From assembly GCA_040905865.1 (NCBI GenBank), contig JBBDQU010000006.1, positions 17,592-59,301 of the forward strand: a stretch of DNA of 41,710 nucleotides. Direction: 5' to 3'. Positions 7,708-41,595 of this stretch are shown here, one piece after another. Every line of letters begins with the position of its first letter. The first letter of the stretch is position 1. The stretch comes from Alphaproteobacteria bacterium. GTDB lineage: Bacteria; Pseudomonadota; Alphaproteobacteria; UBA8366; GCA-2717185. A program made the position numbers and the translations under genes. Below the pieces are notes generated by a model. The model was given only the letters and a program-made list of their open reading frames with translations. It was not told the origin of the DNA and ran no database searches.

Positions 7708-8496
7708 CTACAACCGATAGTTACGTATAGCGTCCTGATCCAGATTAGATGCCGGGACAAGGCAGTAATGCCGCTCGTCCACTACTTTGATATCGTCGTC
7801 CTGTAGCGTCAGTTCGAATAAAGCGACGACATTATCTTCCATGAATTGAGCGGCAATTGCCCGGCATCTCATTTTCGGAAATTTCTGCTCGACGAAACGG
7901 ATATCCTGTGTTGTCTGCACTATCCCGATCTGGTCCTTGCCCCCCTTCGCCTGCACGGGAATGACGTAGTGGCACCCATATTTATCGAGGCCGATATAAA
8001 GCTCGTCGATCTCGATTTGTCCGATGCCTTCGACGGTCGTACGAAGGTGATTCTGCAAGCTGTAGGTCGTCAGGCCGAGAAACGTATCGATTAAGCGGTT
8101 ATAACGGACTATCGCAAGAAGGGCCTGCTCGTCGTCTAGCGCATAGGCACGTATCAATTCCGGCGTTGAATCCGGAATATCTACTATCACGAGATCCTCA
8201 CGCGGTACGATGCGCGTTTTCTTCACGAGCTTAAAACGATATACGCCCCTTCCCGCCCCTTCGATAATCCATTCTCGATCTTCCGATTGGGTGTTTAGAA
8301 TATTGTTGGGCAACCGATTCCGATAACGGAAGGAATAAGGCACATCGCCGATATTTTTGACGCGGGCGAAACCAAGTGCAGCAGCACCGTCTTCAAGTTC
8401 TGTGCGAAGAAACTCGAACTCAGTCGCCCCTTCCGTATAGTGATCGAAAAAAATCCTCTCTATCAGTGCCTGATATCGATTAAGTTTTTCAGCCAT
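7708..8496 (-). CDS. Predicted type II restriction endonuclease, PD-(D/E)XK-like with Q-x-K variant
   Basis: A 262-residue protein starting at ATG 8496, whose first 8 bases overlap the methyltransferase stop, so the two are translationally coupled. A long in-frame extension upstream only reads through the methyltransferase in another frame. No restriction enzyme family is named with certainty. A probable nuclease core is visible: IEIDELYIGLDKYG (Glu162, Asp164, Glu165), then VIPVQAKGGKDQIG (Gln182-Ala-Lys184), arranged like the acidic residue plus Q-x-K signature of Mrr-type PD-(D/E)XK nucleases. Position in the vsr-methyltransferase operon strongly supports the restriction role. Base composition is AT-richer than the chromosome, consistent with horizontal acquisition. 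Confidence 0.72.
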   Translation of the reverse strand: MAEKLNRYQALIERIFFDHYTEGATEFEFLRTELEDGAAALGFARVKNIGDVPYSFRYRNRLPNNILNTQSEDREWIIEGAGRGVYRFKLVKKTRIVPREDLVIVDIPDSTPELIRAYALDDEQALLAIVRYNRLIDTFLGLTTYSLQNHLRTTVEGIGQIEIDELYIGLDKYGCHYVIPVQAKGGKDQIGIVQTTQDIRFVEQKFPKMRCRAIAAQFMEDNVVALFELTLQDDDIKVVDERHYCLVPASNLDQDAIRNYRL

Positions 8497-9856
8497 GGGC
8501 AGCCTGCAACGAGAGACGTTCTCTCTCGATTTCAATCTGCTTACGTTTCTTAGTCCCACTTTTGCGATCTCGCCTGCTAAGCGGAGGCTCGACGCCGAAT
8601 CGCGCCGCCGCTTTGGACATATCGACCGCAAGCAACGTTGGATCGTCGAGCGTAATCGTACCCTCGGGACGACCGGCTTCGATATCGAGCGCTTTACGCA
8701 CGGCGCCTGCAATTGCTCGGGCAAGCGGCGGCGGCACCGCATTGCCGATCTGACGCGCTCCATGCCACTTCGTGACATGGAACCGGAACCAGTCCGGAAA
8801 ACCGTGAAGCCGCGCCATCTCACGCACGGTAATACACCGTAGATACGTATAGTGGATCGGTCTAGGACTGGTGAATGCGCCGCGCGCTCCGTCGGTACCC
8901 GCACGGAGTGTATTCGACACGCCGTCGCCCGGCAGTTTGAAAAATCGACTGATCGGTTCTACGGCACCTGGCGCCGTTTCGCAGAAACGGCGCTGGGATA
9001 TCTCCGTGTGCTTGGTTCTAGCGCTAGACGTTAGAATCGCCGGATTCCATTCACGCACATAACCAAAGTGCCAGGCATCGTTCGTCATGCACCGTAATGC
9101 GGCAGCATAGGAAGAAGGGCTCCCGAAATCGCTCGTTTTCACAGAGTCTGACGCGAGAAGTGTTTCGAACCGATCGGCATCGGGAAGGTCCCCTATCGCC
9201 TCGGCGCAAGTGGGTCCGATCGGCAACTCGTCGATTTTCTGTCGCCGGCCGGCAACGTTGGTCGAAGGTGAAGGATAATCTGGAAGCGCTTCTCCCTTGC
9301 GCGCTCCGAGAAGAATCAAACGCTCGCGGAACTGCGGCGTGCCGAAATGAGCCGCATTTAATACCTTCCAAGGCAAACGCACCGCGTAACCGGCCCTATC
9401 GAACGCTTCGACGAGCTCTTTCAGGAAAGATTTGTGCCTGCCGACGGTGAGCCCCTTTACATTCTCGAAGACAAATGTGCGGGCATTGAGCTCGGCGACA
9501 AGCCGAACGAATTCCAATACAAGCTTATTTCGCGGATCTTCCAGAGCGCGATGCCCAATAAGCGAAAAGCCCTGACACGGCGCTCCCCCGAACACACAGT
9601 CGATTGGACGATCGCCTATGCCGGCTACTTTCCGAATATGAGTGGCGCTTAAACCTTCCACCGAATGCGGAATGATCGGTGTATTCGGAAAATTGTACTT
9701 GTGAACGGCACAGTGGACCGGATCGATTTCGACGGCTGCGACAATATCGAAACCCGCTTGCTCGAAGCCGAGGCTTAAACCGCCGGCTCCAGCGAACAAA
9801 TCAATTCCAATGGGGCGCTTGACAGGCTGACGTTCGGATTGCTTTTTTTCCTTCAT
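8489..9856 (-). CDS. DNA (cytosine-5) methyltransferase
   Basis: A 455-residue C5-cytosine methyltransferase. Motif I FAGAGGLSLGF binds AdoMet, motif IV GGAPCQGFS holds the catalytic Cys94, motif VI is ENVKG (Glu131), and motifs IX-X include TVREMARLHGFPDWFRF and QIGNAVPPPLA. The stretch between motifs VIII and IX (~200-290) is the target-recognition domain; the recognised site cannot be read by eye. A charged, Lys/Arg-rich tail follows motif X. It protects host DNA against the coupled downstream endonuclease, and the vsr gene lies 42 bp upstream. The region is visibly less GC-rich than its surroundings. Confidence 0.95.
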   Translation of the reverse strand: MKEKKQSERQPVKRPIGIDLFAGAGGLSLGFEQAGFDIVAAVEIDPVHCAVHKYNFPNTPIIPHSVEGLSATHIRKVAGIGDRPIDCVFGGAPCQGFSLIGHRALEDPRNKLVLEFVRLVAELNARTFVFENVKGLTVGRHKSFLKELVEAFDRAGYAVRLPWKVLNAAHFGTPQFRERLILLGARKGEALPDYPSPSTNVAGRRQKIDELPIGPTCAEAIGDLPDADRFETLLASDSVKTSDFGSPSSYAAALRCMTNDAWHFGYVREWNPAILTSSARTKHTEISQRRFCETAPGAVEPISRFFKLPGDGVSNTLRAGTDGARGAFTSPRPIHYTYLRCITVREMARLHGFPDWFRFHVTKWHGARQIGNAVPPPLARAIAGAVRKALDIEAGRPEGTITLDDPTLLAVDMSKAAARFGVEPPLSRRDRKSGTKKRKQIEIERERLSLQAAHG

Positions 9857-9898: not shown

Positions 9899-10306
9899 TT
9901 ACGGTTCGTCCAAAAAATTTCTCAACACCTTTGCCAAATCGTCAATATCTGTCGTTTGGCATTGCCAAACGACAAAAACCCGCCATGCTAGTAATGCGAG
10001 TTGCTCTGCTCTATTTTTATCGCGCTCGACGTTCTTAGCGATTTTCGGTTTCCAGTAGTCAAGGCGAGATTTAGGGAGTTGCCCCTTCTTGCATCCATGC
10101 CCGTGCCAGAAGCACCCGTTTACGAAAATCACTTTCTTGCGACTTGGGAATACGATATCGGGCGTGCCGGGCAACTCCTTGCGATGTAGCCTGTAACGAT
10201 ATCCCAGTGAATGAAGTAGCCGACGGACGGTCAATTCGGGCTTCGTATTCTCACGTTTTACCGCCTGCATAATACGTCGGCGTTGAATCGGGTCTCGAGT
10301 ATCCAT
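9899..10306 (-). CDS. vsr: Very short patch repair endonuclease
   Basis: A 135-residue Vsr endonuclease. It nicks DNA at T:G mismatches left when 5-methylcytosine deaminates, protecting the methyltransferase sites. Visible motifs are MQAVKRENTKPELTVRRLLH, the catalytic Asp50 in LPGTPDIVFP, and the Cys/His cluster VNGCFWHGHGCKKG with a later Cys116 that forms the structural zinc site. The start at 10306 gives the normal family opening (DTRDPIQRRRIMQAV); an 18-residue upstream extension lacks support. It is the first gene of the operon, with the AT-rich promoter region to its right. Confidence 0.93.
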   Translation of the reverse strand: MDTRDPIQRRRIMQAVKRENTKPELTVRRLLHSLGYRYRLHRKELPGTPDIVFPSRKKVIFVNGCFWHGHGCKKGQLPKSRLDYWKPKIAKNVERDKNRAEQLALLAWRVFVVWQCQTTDIDDLAKVLRNFLDEP

Positions 10307-10383
10307 AAGACAAAAACTACTCGCTCGATTGCACAAATACAGGCTAGATGACCATCGCATTATCGAATGAATATCAGAATTTA

Positions 10384-10412
10384 TTGACTTTTAACTTATT
10401 TTAGCCTATTAT
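10384..10412 (+). promoter_or_regulatory. Sigma70-like promoter sequence
   Basis: TTGACT at 10384-10389 and TATTAT at 10407-10412, with 17 bp between. It points rightward into the decamer arrays and the gene at 10988. The sequence resembles the promoter region at 41568-41595 (25 of 32 bases agree when that one is read on its own strand). Confidence 0.45.
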
Positions 10413-10485
10413 TCCTTTTTTTAATTTTCGGGACAATCCGCTTCAAACCGCGACTCCCCGCCCCCGCCGCATTGCAAACCGGAAA

Positions 10486-10515
10486 TGTTAAGCCATGTTA
10501 ATCGGTGTTAAGGAT
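10486..10515 (+). repeat. Decamer array 1 (three 10-bp direct units)
   Basis: Units TGTTAAGCCA, TGTTAATCGG and TGTTAAGGAT, in tandem without spacers. Preceded by GGAAA and followed by an AT-rich TTTTCATACTTT and CCCCCG, the same framing as the other arrays. Confidence 0.85.
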
Positions 10516-10559
10516 TTTCATACTTTCCCCCGCTGCCACACCCGCCCGCCCCGCGAAAT

Positions 10560-10589
10560 GCCAACAAAAGCCAATAAAAGCCAATCTTT
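10560..10589 (+). repeat. Decamer array 2 (GCCAA type)
   Basis: Units GCCAACAAAA, GCCAATAAAA and GCCAATCTTT in tandem. Relative to the TGTTAA type, the TT is replaced by CC and CG by AA, but the 10-bp period, the copy number of three and the flanking GAAA / TTTT..CCCCCG are kept. Confidence 0.8.
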
Positions 10590-10644
10590 TCGCATTTTAT
10601 CCCCCGGCCGGTCCGCCCGCCATGCTGCGCTGCACACCGGAAAA

Positions 10645-10674
10645 GCCGACAAATGCCAATAAAAGCCAATCATT
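10645..10674 (+). repeat. Decamer array 3 (GCCAA type)
   Basis: Units GCCGACAAAT, GCCAATAAAA and GCCAATCATT. The same family as array 2, preceded by CCGGAAAA and followed by TCCCCTGTTTTTTCGG. Confidence 0.78.
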
Positions 10675-10790
10675 TCCCCTGTTTTTTCGGCGCGCGGGCA
10701 ACGGGCGGCGGATGCCAGGCGGTGCCGTTCGGTGTTAGGCTTGGCCCATGGCGGTTGCAGGGCCCGGCGGCGCGGCGCGGTGCGGCGGAA

Positions 10791-10820
10791 TGTTAAGCGA
10801 TGTTAATCGATGTTAAGCGA
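10791..10820 (+). repeat. Decamer array 4 (TGTTAA type)
   Basis: Units TGTTAAGCGA, TGTTAATCGA and TGTTAAGCGA, the cleanest copy. Followed by AAACAGTTTTTTCACCCCCG, which recurs after array 5 with one change. Confidence 0.88.
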
Positions 10821-10887
10821 AAACAGTTTTTTCACCCCCGCGCGTGATGCGGGCGGGCCGGGCGGGATGCGGGCGAATGTCAGGGAA

Positions 10888-10917
10888 TGTTAAGCGATGT
10901 TAACCGATGTTAAGCGA
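10888..10917 (+). repeat. Decamer array 5 (TGTTAA type)
   Basis: Units TGTTAAGCGA, TGTTAACCGA and TGTTAAGCGA. Together with flanks it forms a direct repeat of roughly 55 bp with array 4. It ends 70 bp before the FemAB-like gene. Confidence 0.88.
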
Positions 10918-10987
10918 AAACCGTTTTTTCACCCCCGTCCCCGCCTGATTCGGGCCGGGCGGGCGGTGCGGAGGGTGCGGGGCTGAT

Positions 10988-12160
10988 ATGCCGGACGGGC
11001 GCGAGGCGATAACCATCGACCTGCTGGACCGGATCGACCGGGTCGATGCGGCGCAGTGGGATGCCTGCGCCGGCGGCGCGAATCCGTTTGTCAGCCATAC
11101 CTTCCTGCACGCGCTGGAGGAAAGCGGCTCGGTCGGCCGGAAAAGCGGCTGGGCGCCGCAGCACCTGGCGGTGCGCGACGGGGCCGGGCTGCTGCTGGGG
11201 GCGGTGCCGATGTACCTGAAGAACCATTCGCAGGGCGAATATGTCTTCGACTGGGGCTGGGCCGATGCCTATGAGCGCGCGGGCGGGCGCTATTACCCCA
11301 AGCTGCAGGCGGCGGTGCCGTTCTCGCCGGTCACCGGGCCCCGGCTGCTGGTGCGGCCGGGGCCGCAGGCGGATGCGGTGCGCCGGGCGATGATCGGCGG
11401 GCTGGTGGAGGTCGCCACGCGCTATGGCGTGTCCTCGCTGCATGTCACCTTCGCGCAGCCAGGCGATGTGGCGGCGCTGGCGGCGGCGGGGTTCCTGGTG
11501 CGGCACGGCCACCAGTTCCACTGGCACAACCGGGGCTATGGCTGCTTCGACGATTTCCTGGCCGACCTGTCCAGCCGCAAGCGCAAGAATATCCGCAAGG
11601 AGCGCCAGAAGGTCGCCGACAGGGGGATTTCCGTGGCGATGCTGAACGGGCCGGATATCCGCCCCGAACACTGGGACGAGTTCCACCATTTCTATGTCAG
11701 CACCTATGACCGCAAATGGGGCTATCCCTACCTGACGCGGGATTTCTTCGCCATGCTGGGGGACCGCATGGCCGACCGGGTGGGCCTCGTGCGGGCGGAA
11801 CATGACGGGCGCGCCATCGCCGGCGCGCTGAACCTGGTGGGGGAGGACGCGCTGTACGGGCGCAACTGGGGCTGCGACGGGCGCTACCCCTTCCTGCATT
11901 TCGAATGCTGCTATTACCAGGCGATCGATTTCGCCATCGAGCGCGGGCTGGCTACGGTGGAGGCCGGGACCCAGGGGCCGCACAAGATCCAGCGCGGCTA
12001 CCTGCCGGTGCGGACGCAGAGCGCGCACTGGATCCGCGACGCGGGCTTCCGCGCGGCGGTGGCCGATTTCCTGGAACGCGAACGCCGGGCCGAGGCGGGG
12101 GAATCGGAACACCTCGCCGAGATGTCGCCCTTCCGCCGGACGGAGAACGATCCGGCCTGA
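10988..12160 (+). CDS. FemAB/GNAT-like 'peptidogalycan biosynthesis' family protein (PF04339-like)
   Basis: A 390-residue protein. The opening domain (WDACAGGANPFVSHTFLHALEESGSVGRKSGWAPQHL) and later SSRKRKNIRKERQKVADRGI, FYVSTYDRKWGYPYLTRDFF and LHFECCYYQAIDFAIERGLATVEAGTQGPHKIQRGYLP are hallmarks of the PF04339 family, a FemAB-like double-GNAT fold. Members are conserved in proteobacteria but the biochemical role is not settled; an aminoacyl or acyl transfer to a cell-surface substrate is the usual guess. The decamer arrays lie directly upstream, so expression may depend on them (inference). No signal peptide is visible. Confidence 0.8.
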   Translation: MPDGREAITIDLLDRIDRVDAAQWDACAGGANPFVSHTFLHALEESGSVGRKSGWAPQHLAVRDGAGLLLGAVPMYLKNHSQGEYVFDWGWADAYERAGGRYYPKLQAAVPFSPVTGPRLLVRPGPQADAVRRAMIGGLVEVATRYGVSSLHVTFAQPGDVAALAAAGFLVRHGHQFHWHNRGYGCFDDFLADLSSRKRKNIRKERQKVADRGISVAMLNGPDIRPEHWDEFHHFYVSTYDRKWGYPYLTRDFFAMLGDRMADRVGLVRAEHDGRAIAGALNLVGEDALYGRNWGCDGRYPFLHFECCYYQAIDFAIERGLATVEAGTQGPHKIQRGYLPVRTQSAHWIRDAGFRAAVADFLERERRAEAGESEHLAEMSPFRRTENDPA

Positions 12161-40239: not shown

Positions 40240-40309
40240 GGTTCGATTCCATAGGCTTGTATCGGCATGTCGCGACTTTCGGGAACAAGGTAACCGGCTG
40301 CGCCGCCCC

Positions 40310-40425
40310 ACCTCACCCCGGCCCTCTCCGCCCCCAAGGGGCAGAGAGGGAGCCGCAAGCGTCGCCGTCCCGCCCCACCAATATCTTCCTCGCCCCCTCT
40401 GGGGGAGAGGATCGAGGTGAGGGGG
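40310..40425. repeat. Imperfect inverted repeat with two internal hairpins
   Basis: CACCTCACCCCGGCCCTCTC at the left and GAGAGGATCGAGGTGAGGGG at the right are imperfect inverted copies. Each contains its own small hairpin: GCCCC-CAA-GGGGC at the left and CCCCC-TCT-GGGGG at the right. This pattern is a familiar intergenic repeat in alphaproteobacteria and may also end transcription from asnB. Confidence 0.7.
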
Positions 40426-40491
40426 GACGCGCAGGTCTTGCCGCATCGGAACCGTCACCGGATCGGCCGCCCCTCCCGAAAAAATCCTGCG

Positions 40492-40521
40492 GCGATATAC
40501 ATCGATTGACATATCATGGAG
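40492..40521 (-). repeat. Degenerate decamer array (reverse orientation)
   Basis: On the minus strand the units read CTCCATGATA, TGTCAATCGA and TGTATATCGC. The second and third match the array at 40828-40857 at 19 of 20 positions, and the following GCAGGATTTTTTCGGGAGGG parallels that copy's flank. The first unit has decayed. Confidence 0.55.
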
Positions 40522-40563
40522 CGCCCCGGACGTTTACCGCCCGCCGCGCCCCGGCGGCCGCGC

Positions 40564-40592
40564 ATGGATCCCGGATCGGGGTCCGGGATGAC
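40564..40592. repeat. GTCATCCC-type REP palindrome
   Basis: CATGGATCCCGGATCGGGG followed by TCCGGGATGAC, the same element as at ~31754-31782 with a changed centre. Confidence 0.7.
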
Positions 40593-40660
40593 GGTATGGC
40601 GGGTTTGCGCGGCCTTCCCGACGACAAGGCCGCCCGCGCCACGCCAGTACGTGCCCCCCG

Positions 40661-40746
40661 CACACCCACCTGTCACGCCGCACACTCCCAACAGTCGCCC
40701 GCACATTCCCGACTGTCGCCCCGCAACACTCCCAACTGTCACCCCG
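40661..40746 (+). repeat. Degenerate ~21-bp tandem repeat, four units
   Basis: Units of 20, 21, 22 and 23 bp, each shaped CACAnTCCCnACnGTCnCCCG: CACACCCACCTGTCACGCCG, then copies at 40681, 40702 and 40724. The last runs directly into a REP-like CACCTGATGCGGGG palindrome, so the units look like iterated REP ends. Confidence 0.65.
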
Positions 40747-40827
40747 CACCTGATGCGGGGCCCATGCCGCAACCGCGCGACATTGCCGGGACAGACGCCA
40801 GCGCGACCCCTCCCGAAAATTTTTGCG

Positions 40828-40857
40828 GCGATATACATCGATTAACATCGCTTAACA
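40828..40857 (-). repeat. Decamer array (reverse orientation)
   Basis: On the minus strand: TGTTAAGCGA, TGTTAATCGA and TGTATATCGC, in tandem. The first two are identical to units of array 4 some 30 kb away, and the flanks again run from an A-rich GCAAA on one side to CGCAAAAATTTTCGGGAGGG on the other. It lies 30 bp beyond the terminase-like gene's stop. Confidence 0.8.
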
Positions 40858-40887: not shown

Positions 40888-41532
40888 CTACCCGCCGGGC
40901 AACCCACCGGATAATGCGACGCGCGCGGTCATTGTGTCCGGCGGGAACGGCAACGGGTTCCGCGCCGCAAGAAAAGTATCGGATGGTTGGCTTTTATGGG
41001 CATTTATCGGCAATCCGGGGGGCGGAACCGGCGGCGTTTCCCGCGCGCGGGCGGCATCCGGCGCGGGCGGACGGGCCGGGGATGGCGCGGCGGGCGCGGC
41101 CGGGGCTTCGCCGGACGCCGTGACCTCCGGCGGCAGGCTCGCCTCCAGCGCCGCCAGCATCGCGTCGAGGTCCGGTGTTGCGACGGATTGCGCCGGACGG
41201 GCCCCCTTCCGCCACGCGGGGGTCGCCTCGGATACCTTCAGCTGCATCGCCACGGCGCGCAGGGCGGTATTCAGCTGGTTCTGCTCCAGCGCCAACTCGT
41301 AGATCGACTGCAGCCGGGCCAGCACCGCATTGGTATCCGCCACCTGCCGGACCGCGACCTCGTCGCGCAGCGCCGCGATCCGCGCCTGAATTTCCGGCCG
41401 CGCCAGCAGCCGGCACGCCTGCGCCGCCGCGTTGTCCGCCCCGTACCCCGCCGCGATGGCGGCGGCGCTGCCCACTGGCCGGCGGACATATTCCCGGCAG
41501 AACAATTCATGCCGCTCGTTCGGTCTGTTCAT
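40888..41532 (-). CDS. Phage terminase small-subunit-like protein
   Basis: A 214-residue protein. The N-terminal ~60 residues (NERHELFCREYVRRPVGSAAAIAAGYGADNAAAQACRLLARPEIQARI) carry the DNA-recognition helices of terminase_2 small subunits, which bind phage packaging sites. The middle (NAVLARLQSIYELALEQNQLNTALRAVAMQLKVS) fits the oligomerisation helices. The C-terminal ~90 residues are Pro/Ala-rich and look disordered, unlike typical phage versions. No large terminase, portal or capsid gene is in the window, though the part to the right is unseen. GGAGG at a good distance precedes ATG 41532 and the promoter is at 41568-41595. Confidence 0.75.
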   Translation of the reverse strand: MNRPNERHELFCREYVRRPVGSAAAIAAGYGADNAAAQACRLLARPEIQARIAALRDEVAVRQVADTNAVLARLQSIYELALEQNQLNTALRAVAMQLKVSEATPAWRKGARPAQSVATPDLDAMLAALEASLPPEVTASGEAPAAPAAPSPARPPAPDAARARETPPVPPPGLPINAHKSQPSDTFLAARNPLPFPPDTMTARVALSGGLPGG

Positions 41533-41567
41533 ATCCCTGACCTCCGTGAAAGGGAGAAAACAGGAAT

Positions 41568-41595
41568 ATTATACTATAACGGGTTAAAAGTCAAA
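41568..41595 (-). promoter_or_regulatory. Promoter of the terminase-like gene
   Basis: On the minus strand, TTTGAC (41590-41595) and a perfect TATAAT (41568-41573) are 16 bp apart, about 36 bp before the start codon. It sits in an AT-rich patch unlike the surrounding DNA. Confidence 0.6.

Follow-up and report, generated by a model that had tools for sequence, protein, structure and literature searches.

Dispersed triple-decamer arrays in Alphaproteobacteria as candidate DNA sites of orphan small-terminase-like proteins

The described systems closest to the element discussed here are (i) the MraZ box, located upstream of mraZ and the dcw cluster, in which three or four TGGGN direct repeats with a 10-bp period are bound by a ring-shaped oligomer, (ii) REP sequences, which are dispersed intergenic palindromic repeats with RAYT tyrosine transposases as the cognate domesticated protein, (iii) the CtrA box, TTAA-N7-TTAA, and (iv) the small terminase of the SPP1/SF6 type with its pac site, from which packaging of the surrounding DNA begins. 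The element consists of arrays of 10-bp direct repeats (decamers) in a 41,710-bp stretch of alphaproteobacterial DNA (contig JBBDQU010000006.1), hereafter the window. Five arrays lie upstream of a FemAB-like gene, and further arrays accompany an orphan gene, terS, for a small-terminase-like protein (TerS). To our knowledge, no known element has the decamer-array layout, a judgment also made in an earlier reading of the window (the original prediction). The open-access literature, to which the search was confined, yielded no account of orphan chromosomal TerS accompanied by dispersed arrays.

The arrays resemble each of these systems in part. Like the MraZ box, they consist of a small number of direct repeats spaced 10 bp apart, for what would be a ring protein, but they lack the TGGG core (their units are TGTTAA, GCCAA, TGACA, or GGGAA, depending on the clade), they occur genome-wide at dozens of loci, and the linked gene is terS. 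As with REP/RAYT, dispersed intergenic repeats share a genome with a putatively cognate domesticated protein; the arrays, however, are direct rather than palindromic, and the protein is TerS-like rather than a tyrosine transposase. The CtrA box has in common with them a TTAA core at about one helical turn and is ruled out, as the original prediction had rightly held, because the spacing is TTAA-N6-TTAA at best and neither the B-type arrays nor the motifs of other clades contain TTAA. With the SPP1/SF6 small terminase the likeness extends to the protein family (profile match to the solved SF6 TerS, 3zqp, E 3.5e-11) and to the presence of direct repeats within or beside the small terminase gene, as in a pac site; neighboring helix-turn-helix (HTH) motifs of the reference rings are about one B-DNA turn apart (PMC4737164). 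Unlike in SPP1/SF6, the terS genes here are orphan, chromosomal, and multi-copy and have a promoter of their own, and sites with no terS beside them are scattered by the dozen to hundred.

The decamer arrays are probably the cognate DNA sites of domesticated orphan TerS-like proteins. Four observations carry this proposal: (i) clusters with the layout promoter P, arrays of two to five decamers, and T-tract form a dispersed, co-oriented, intergenic family, (ii) TerS-like genes, which are multi-copy and set among ordinary bacterial genes, are framed by these arrays and this promoter, (iii) from family to family a different TerS clade comes with a different decamer motif, the 10-bp period and the unit number of three being unchanged, and (iv) motifs taken from TerS gene ends alone predict arrays genome-wide.

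The five arrays beside the FemAB-like gene all lie on the plus strand with a unit spacing of exactly 10 bp (Table 1), which bears out the five co-oriented triple decamers first reported. A two-unit pattern with at most two mismatches matches the window 12 times vs 0.13 expected (100 shuffles, maximum 2); 10 of the 12 matches fall in the 10486-10917 region and the remaining two (40838 and 40993, minus strand) beside the gene at 40888-41532, which is terS. Array 4 is a 97-bp near-duplicate of array 5, and the latter has a degenerate fourth unit, TGTCAGGGAA, at 10878 before its three decamers.

Table 1. Arrays, promoter-like elements, and associated genes in the window
Feature	Position	Strand	Details
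Promoter-like element P, sigma70-like	10384..10420	+	TTGACT-N17-TATTAT then TCCTTTTTTT (also given as TCCTTTTTT); read directly
Array 1, type A (TGTTAA), 3 decamers	10486..10515	+	units TGTTAAGCCA TGTTAATCGG TGTTAAGGAT; read directly
Array 2, type B (GCCAA), 3 decamers	10559..10588	+	units TGCCAACAAA AGCCAATAAA AGCCAATCTT; read directly
Array 3, type B, 3 decamers	10644..10673	+	units AGCCGACAAA TGCCAATAAA AGCCAATCAT; read directly
Array 4, type A, 3 decamers, then T-tract	10791..10820	+	units TGTTAAGCGA TGTTAATCGA TGTTAAGCGA; read directly
Array 5, type A, 3 decamers, then T-tract	10878..10917 including degenerate unit	+	units TGTTAAGCGA TGTTAACCGA TGTTAAGCGA from 10888
FemAB-like gene adjoining arrays	10988..12160	+	Pfam PF04339, E 1.3e-160
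Type A array, 2 decamers + TGTATATCGC, 31 bp past TerS stop codon, then T-tract	40828..40857	-	
Orphan small-terminase-like gene terS (TerS)	40888..41532	-	Pfam Terminase_2, phrog_51, SF6 TerS profile
Type B array, 3 decamers, inside 3′ end of TerS reading frame	40983..41012	-	
Promoter P of TerS gene	41561..41594	-	TTGACT-N17-TATAAT-like then ATTCCTGTTTTC

The family extends through the window's own genome (G000, 4.37 Mb), where the three-unit pattern with at most two mismatches has 47 matches and its reversal none, and the B-type pattern has 22 matches and its reversal again none; the earlier suggestion of a dispersed repeat family is thereby borne out. These arrays form about 27 clusters at unrelated genes. 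A weight-matrix scan of 250 kb of G000 around the clusters finds 59 arrays vs 2 in reversed sequence. The layout obtained from 50 arrays aligned on their last unit is A-[WGYYAANNRA]2-5, about 7 free bases, A, a T-tract, and GC-rich sequence, with the T-tract at positions 18-22, counted from where the last unit begins, and a T at position 20 in 46 of the 50 arrays. Thus three is the commonest number of units but not the fixed one originally described, since arrays of two to five exist; likewise, the reported flanks hold for the A before the first unit (47/50) and the T-tract, whereas CCCCCG is not fixed and the tail is merely GC-rich. All arrays within one cluster share orientation, and arrays are intergenic save where they run into the 3′ end of a terS gene. 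Some are in frame at the TerS C-terminus (MPINANKSQ, MSINVNECQ). Most arrays, however, show these bases outside coding sequence, which places the constraint on nucleic acid, and a peptide-level cause is rejected; the idea that one-turn spacing is meant for a protein stands.

Clusters without terS (lone clusters) precede a same-strand gene in about two-thirds of cases in G000, often by 25-130 bp, while about one-third meet the end of a convergent gene. The arrays are therefore not simply operators of the next gene, and the original proposal of regulatory iterons for the gene at 10988 is, on the same ground, not supported as stated. Replication or partition iterons, which come with a rep or par gene and one locus per replicon, are not supported, given the tens of copies (about 27 clusters) at unrelated genes with no rep or par gene involved; such a site had been put forward as a possible role.

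A check of conservation upstream of the orthologue of the gene at 10988 was also called for in the original prediction, and gene-proximal arrays are indeed conserved beside orthologous genes in related species. The named relatives are metagenome-assembled genomes such as L_MB362 and MarineAlpha10_Bin3. At least seven clusters are orthologous array loci among G000 and the relatives G009 and G010; in alignments of such loci, the gene-proximal array and T-tract are kept while the remaining intergenic sequence has diverged, which argues against mere decay. Promoter P is also kept at the L097/L111 orthologous loci. Beyond these genomes, the exact A-type pattern has no match outside the window's genus in genome-contig and viral-contig collections. 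Across 289 genomes of the class, a degenerate three-unit pattern gives 24 matches in G000, 3 in G101, and three singletons (reversed control, 2 in total), which makes G101, from another family, the only other genome with more than one match to the window-type pattern.

The window TerS matches Pfam Terminase_2 (PF03592, E 2.1e-13), PHROGs phrog_51 (E 1.6e-18), and, by profile, the SF6/SPP1-type structures 3zqp and 4zc3, which gives it the profile of a small-terminase HTH DNA-binding domain. TerS copies number six in G010, two in G008, and one in G009; G000 has nine matching segments at about six loci, and one further TerS occurs in a second genus (G006). Arrays lie at or just past the 3′ end at five of the six G000 loci (C6, C15, C28, C48, and C60), and the motif is essentially absent from the remainder of these loci. 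Arrays are likewise present at five of the six G010 copies, with two ATGTAGACAA-type units at the sixth. This link to terS genes, like the shared promoter, had escaped the earlier reading.

The location of arrays at the TerS gene would also suit pac-like sites, to which the orphan TerS brings the large terminase (TerL) of a phage or gene-transfer agent so that chromosomal DNA is packaged. This explanation is highly improbable because TerS appears to have no resident partner. It lies beside ordinary bacterial genes instead of a large terminase and other phage genes, and a search of 50,697 phage records gave no match to the window TerS. Moreover, Terminase_6N, the one TerL family searched for, was not found in five of eight orphan-TerS genomes, and its single G000 match is borderline and on a contig other than that of the window. 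TerS genes similar to those of G387 are also present on Skermanella replicons among ordinary genes, where the TerS 3′ end has no clear 10-bp array.

The covariation of TerS and motif is seen in other families of the class. A terS-like gene at E ≤1e-15 is found in 9 of 385 genomes of the class; G101, the genome singled out by the window-type pattern, has one at E 3e-41. In G137, all seven TerS copies carry GGGAANGGAA three times at the 3′ end (GGGAA triples), while in G396, G319, and G405 the 3′ ends of all seven copies carry in-register C[AC]TGACANNT units (TGACA decamers). A TGACA-type motif, TGACANWTCMKKACA, which was taken solely from TerS gene ends before the genome-wide search, has 176 matches in G396, 143 in G319, and 251 in G405; the reversed control gives 0-2, and three genomes whose TerS belong to other clades (G137, G387, and G246) give 3-14. 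The GGGAA motif has 30 matches in G137; four other genomes have none and serve as the comparison because this motif is nearly reversal-symmetric and its reversed control is invalid. Three units are commonest in G396 as well, where 165 kb of fetched loci hold 54 arrays vs 0 in the control. In a lag test on 38 terS loci, anchored with a hidden Markov model (HMM), lag 10 has a mean repeat score of 11.5, the highest among lags that are not multiples of 3 (others ≤10.9). The TerS tree groups by motif class, with G396, G319, and G405 forming one clade (support 100/100).

Alternatively, another DNA-binding protein encoded elsewhere could recognize the arrays, with TerS genes merely one linked cargo. 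In keeping with this account, arrays greatly outnumber TerS genes, some of which lack arrays; the motif, however, differs along with the TerS clade in three or more lineages, which is unexpected for linked cargo, and the account seems distinctly improbable.

Promoter P ties the lone clusters to the terS genes, which it also precedes. On the same strand, 22 P-like sites occur in the 28 kb within 1 kb upstream of arrays (7.7 per 10 kb), compared to 6 in the rest of 500 kb of scanned strand (0.13 per 10 kb), an enrichment of about 60-fold. Lone clusters of G396 have a common sigma70-like promoter of their own about 80-125 bp upstream, TTGAAATTC-N9-AGAACATTATATGAACA. A clade-specific short motif lies over the -10 box of the orphan terS promoters (ATTCCT, AGGAATATT, TTCCTAGGA, AATAGGATTA, and GAACATTATATGAACA in G000, G101, G137, G387, and G396), and it may be an operator. 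In G000, G101, and G396, the -10-overlapping motif is common to terS and lone arrays.

Such a promoter raises the prospect that P drives an untranslated transcript whose decamers are recognized by a ring protein (TerS or a different one), much as in TRAP leaders or sponge RNAs. Wherever P is found, arrays follow downstream on the same strand, at L097/L111 it leads to nothing but arrays and a convergent gene, and the T-tract stands at a fixed distance, as expected of a U-tract. Both lone loci of G101 (L153 and L154) have, by eye, a sequence between P and array that resembles boxA, the antitermination signal of rRNA operons (GTTCTTTGACATTGTGAAGA; GCTCTTTGATGCTGT), which suggests untranslated transcripts there. 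Nevertheless, the TerS family is DNA-binding, no boxA-like sequence was seen in G000, and an Rfam scan of the window gave no match, so that an RNA role is quite unlikely.

The window locus itself has a counterpart with terS in two relatives. Immediately upstream of the G010 orthologue of the FemAB-like gene (88% identity, 389 aa) is a terS gene with arrays; in G101, 150 bp separate a femAB homologue of 53% identity from the terS-like gene upstream of it. At the same place, the window has P and five arrays but no terS. Because terS is directly upstream in both relatives, window 10384-10980 is likely a former TerS locus that lost terS and retained P and the arrays upstream of femAB.

Full and shortened loci of this kind could also be a mobile or selfish repeat, with P-terS-arrays as the full element, P-arrays as its non-autonomous form, and the arrays as element ends or as modules spread by duplication and conversion. 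In agreement with this, TerS copies with their arrays are nearly the same from one site to the next (92% over 454 bp for C6 vs C48), lone loci of G396 share 75-92% identical modules of array and following sequence, and contigs of the G000 draft often end at TerS copies. Most G000 lone loci, on the other hand, have only P and arrays in common, many loci are orthologous across separate species with arrays kept while the rest has diverged, and neither a transposase nor inverted ends nor target duplications were seen. On balance, a mobile or selfish repeat is rather unlikely. Duplication is compatible with a cellular function of the arrays, and the selfish-repeat reading is not exclusive.

For arrays as TerS sites, a physical mechanism can be proposed by analogy with the family. 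The TerS oligomer would be a ring, and TerS rings of the SPP1/SF6 type have a circumference of about 300 Å, which is permissive of DNA wrapping (PMC4737164). Three or more adjacent HTHs of one ring would each take one decamer, and the DNA may wrap around the ring with the T-tract aiding the bend. Recognition of the arrays by TerS is the best-supported step because identical sites at a 10-bp period suit such a ring and A/T tracts favor bending. With lower confidence, the bound sites may serve the bacterial chromosome itself, in its regulation or its architecture, rather than phage packaging; either function fits the conservation and dispersal of the arrays.

Several observations weigh against TerS as the reader of the arrays. 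Lone arrays are far more numerous than TerS genes, and G009, an 88% complete draft, has many arrays with one TerS detected. Conversely, a 10-bp array is missing from some orphan TerS genes (G000 C36, G009 C191, G246, and most G387 copies), while those of G101 and G006 have repeats of about 15 bp in its place. In the lag test, lag 12 scores slightly above lag 10 through codon structure. Lastly, the SF6 TerS DNA-binding domain alone was found to bind with little sequence specificity (PMC4737164).

The data suggest that a ring-shaped protein for phage DNA packaging was taken over by bacteria along with its landing sites. A broader and more tentative extension, held at somewhat below even chances, is that several alphaproteobacterial lineages diversified a chromosomal TerS-array code in which rings of TerS paralogues would recognize clade-specific triple decamers at transcribed intergenic positions, tens to hundreds in number, and would wrap DNA much as small nucleosomes do, thereby organizing or regulating the chromosome. 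If the TerS assignment is true, a phage packaging protein and its recognition sites have been turned into a genome-wide bacterial system, and a class of alphaproteobacterial intergenic repeats is explained. Since each TerS clade goes with its own motif, the clade-motif pairs offer natural matched sets for asking which part of the ring's DNA recognition is sequence-specific. The assignment would also serve as a warning that many “terminase small subunit” annotations, such as those on Skermanella plasmids, are not prophage remnants.

Other repeats accompany the arrays and terS genes. Unrelated repeats, palindromic and GC-rich (GTCATCCCGGACCCCGATCCGGGATCC; CCCTCTCC...GGAGAGGG), are concentrated around arrays at window 40300-40760 and at G000 lone loci. 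The modules of the G396 lone loci (L205-L221) alternate arrays with REP-like palindromes (CCGTCATTTCGACCGGAGCCCCGG type), which are separate items from the decamer units. The repeats of about 15 bp follow terS in tandem in G006 (L064) and G101 (L158) and comprise AATGTTAACCCCGAA three times and GCCAATA-containing repeats on the opposite strand. In G106 (L162), two decamers (ATGTTAACAA AAGCCAACAT) lie within the part of terS that encodes the HTH recognition region.

To the left of the promoter-array locus, the window encodes a C5 cytosine DNA methylase (PF00145, E 9.7e-65; 8489-9856, minus strand) and, just beside the locus, a Vsr mismatch endonuclease (PF03852, E 1.7e-30; 9899-10360, minus strand). 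The two genes sit between the array locus and the CoA-transferase-type gene that adjoins the orthologous G010 locus, and the pair is probably an inserted modification island.
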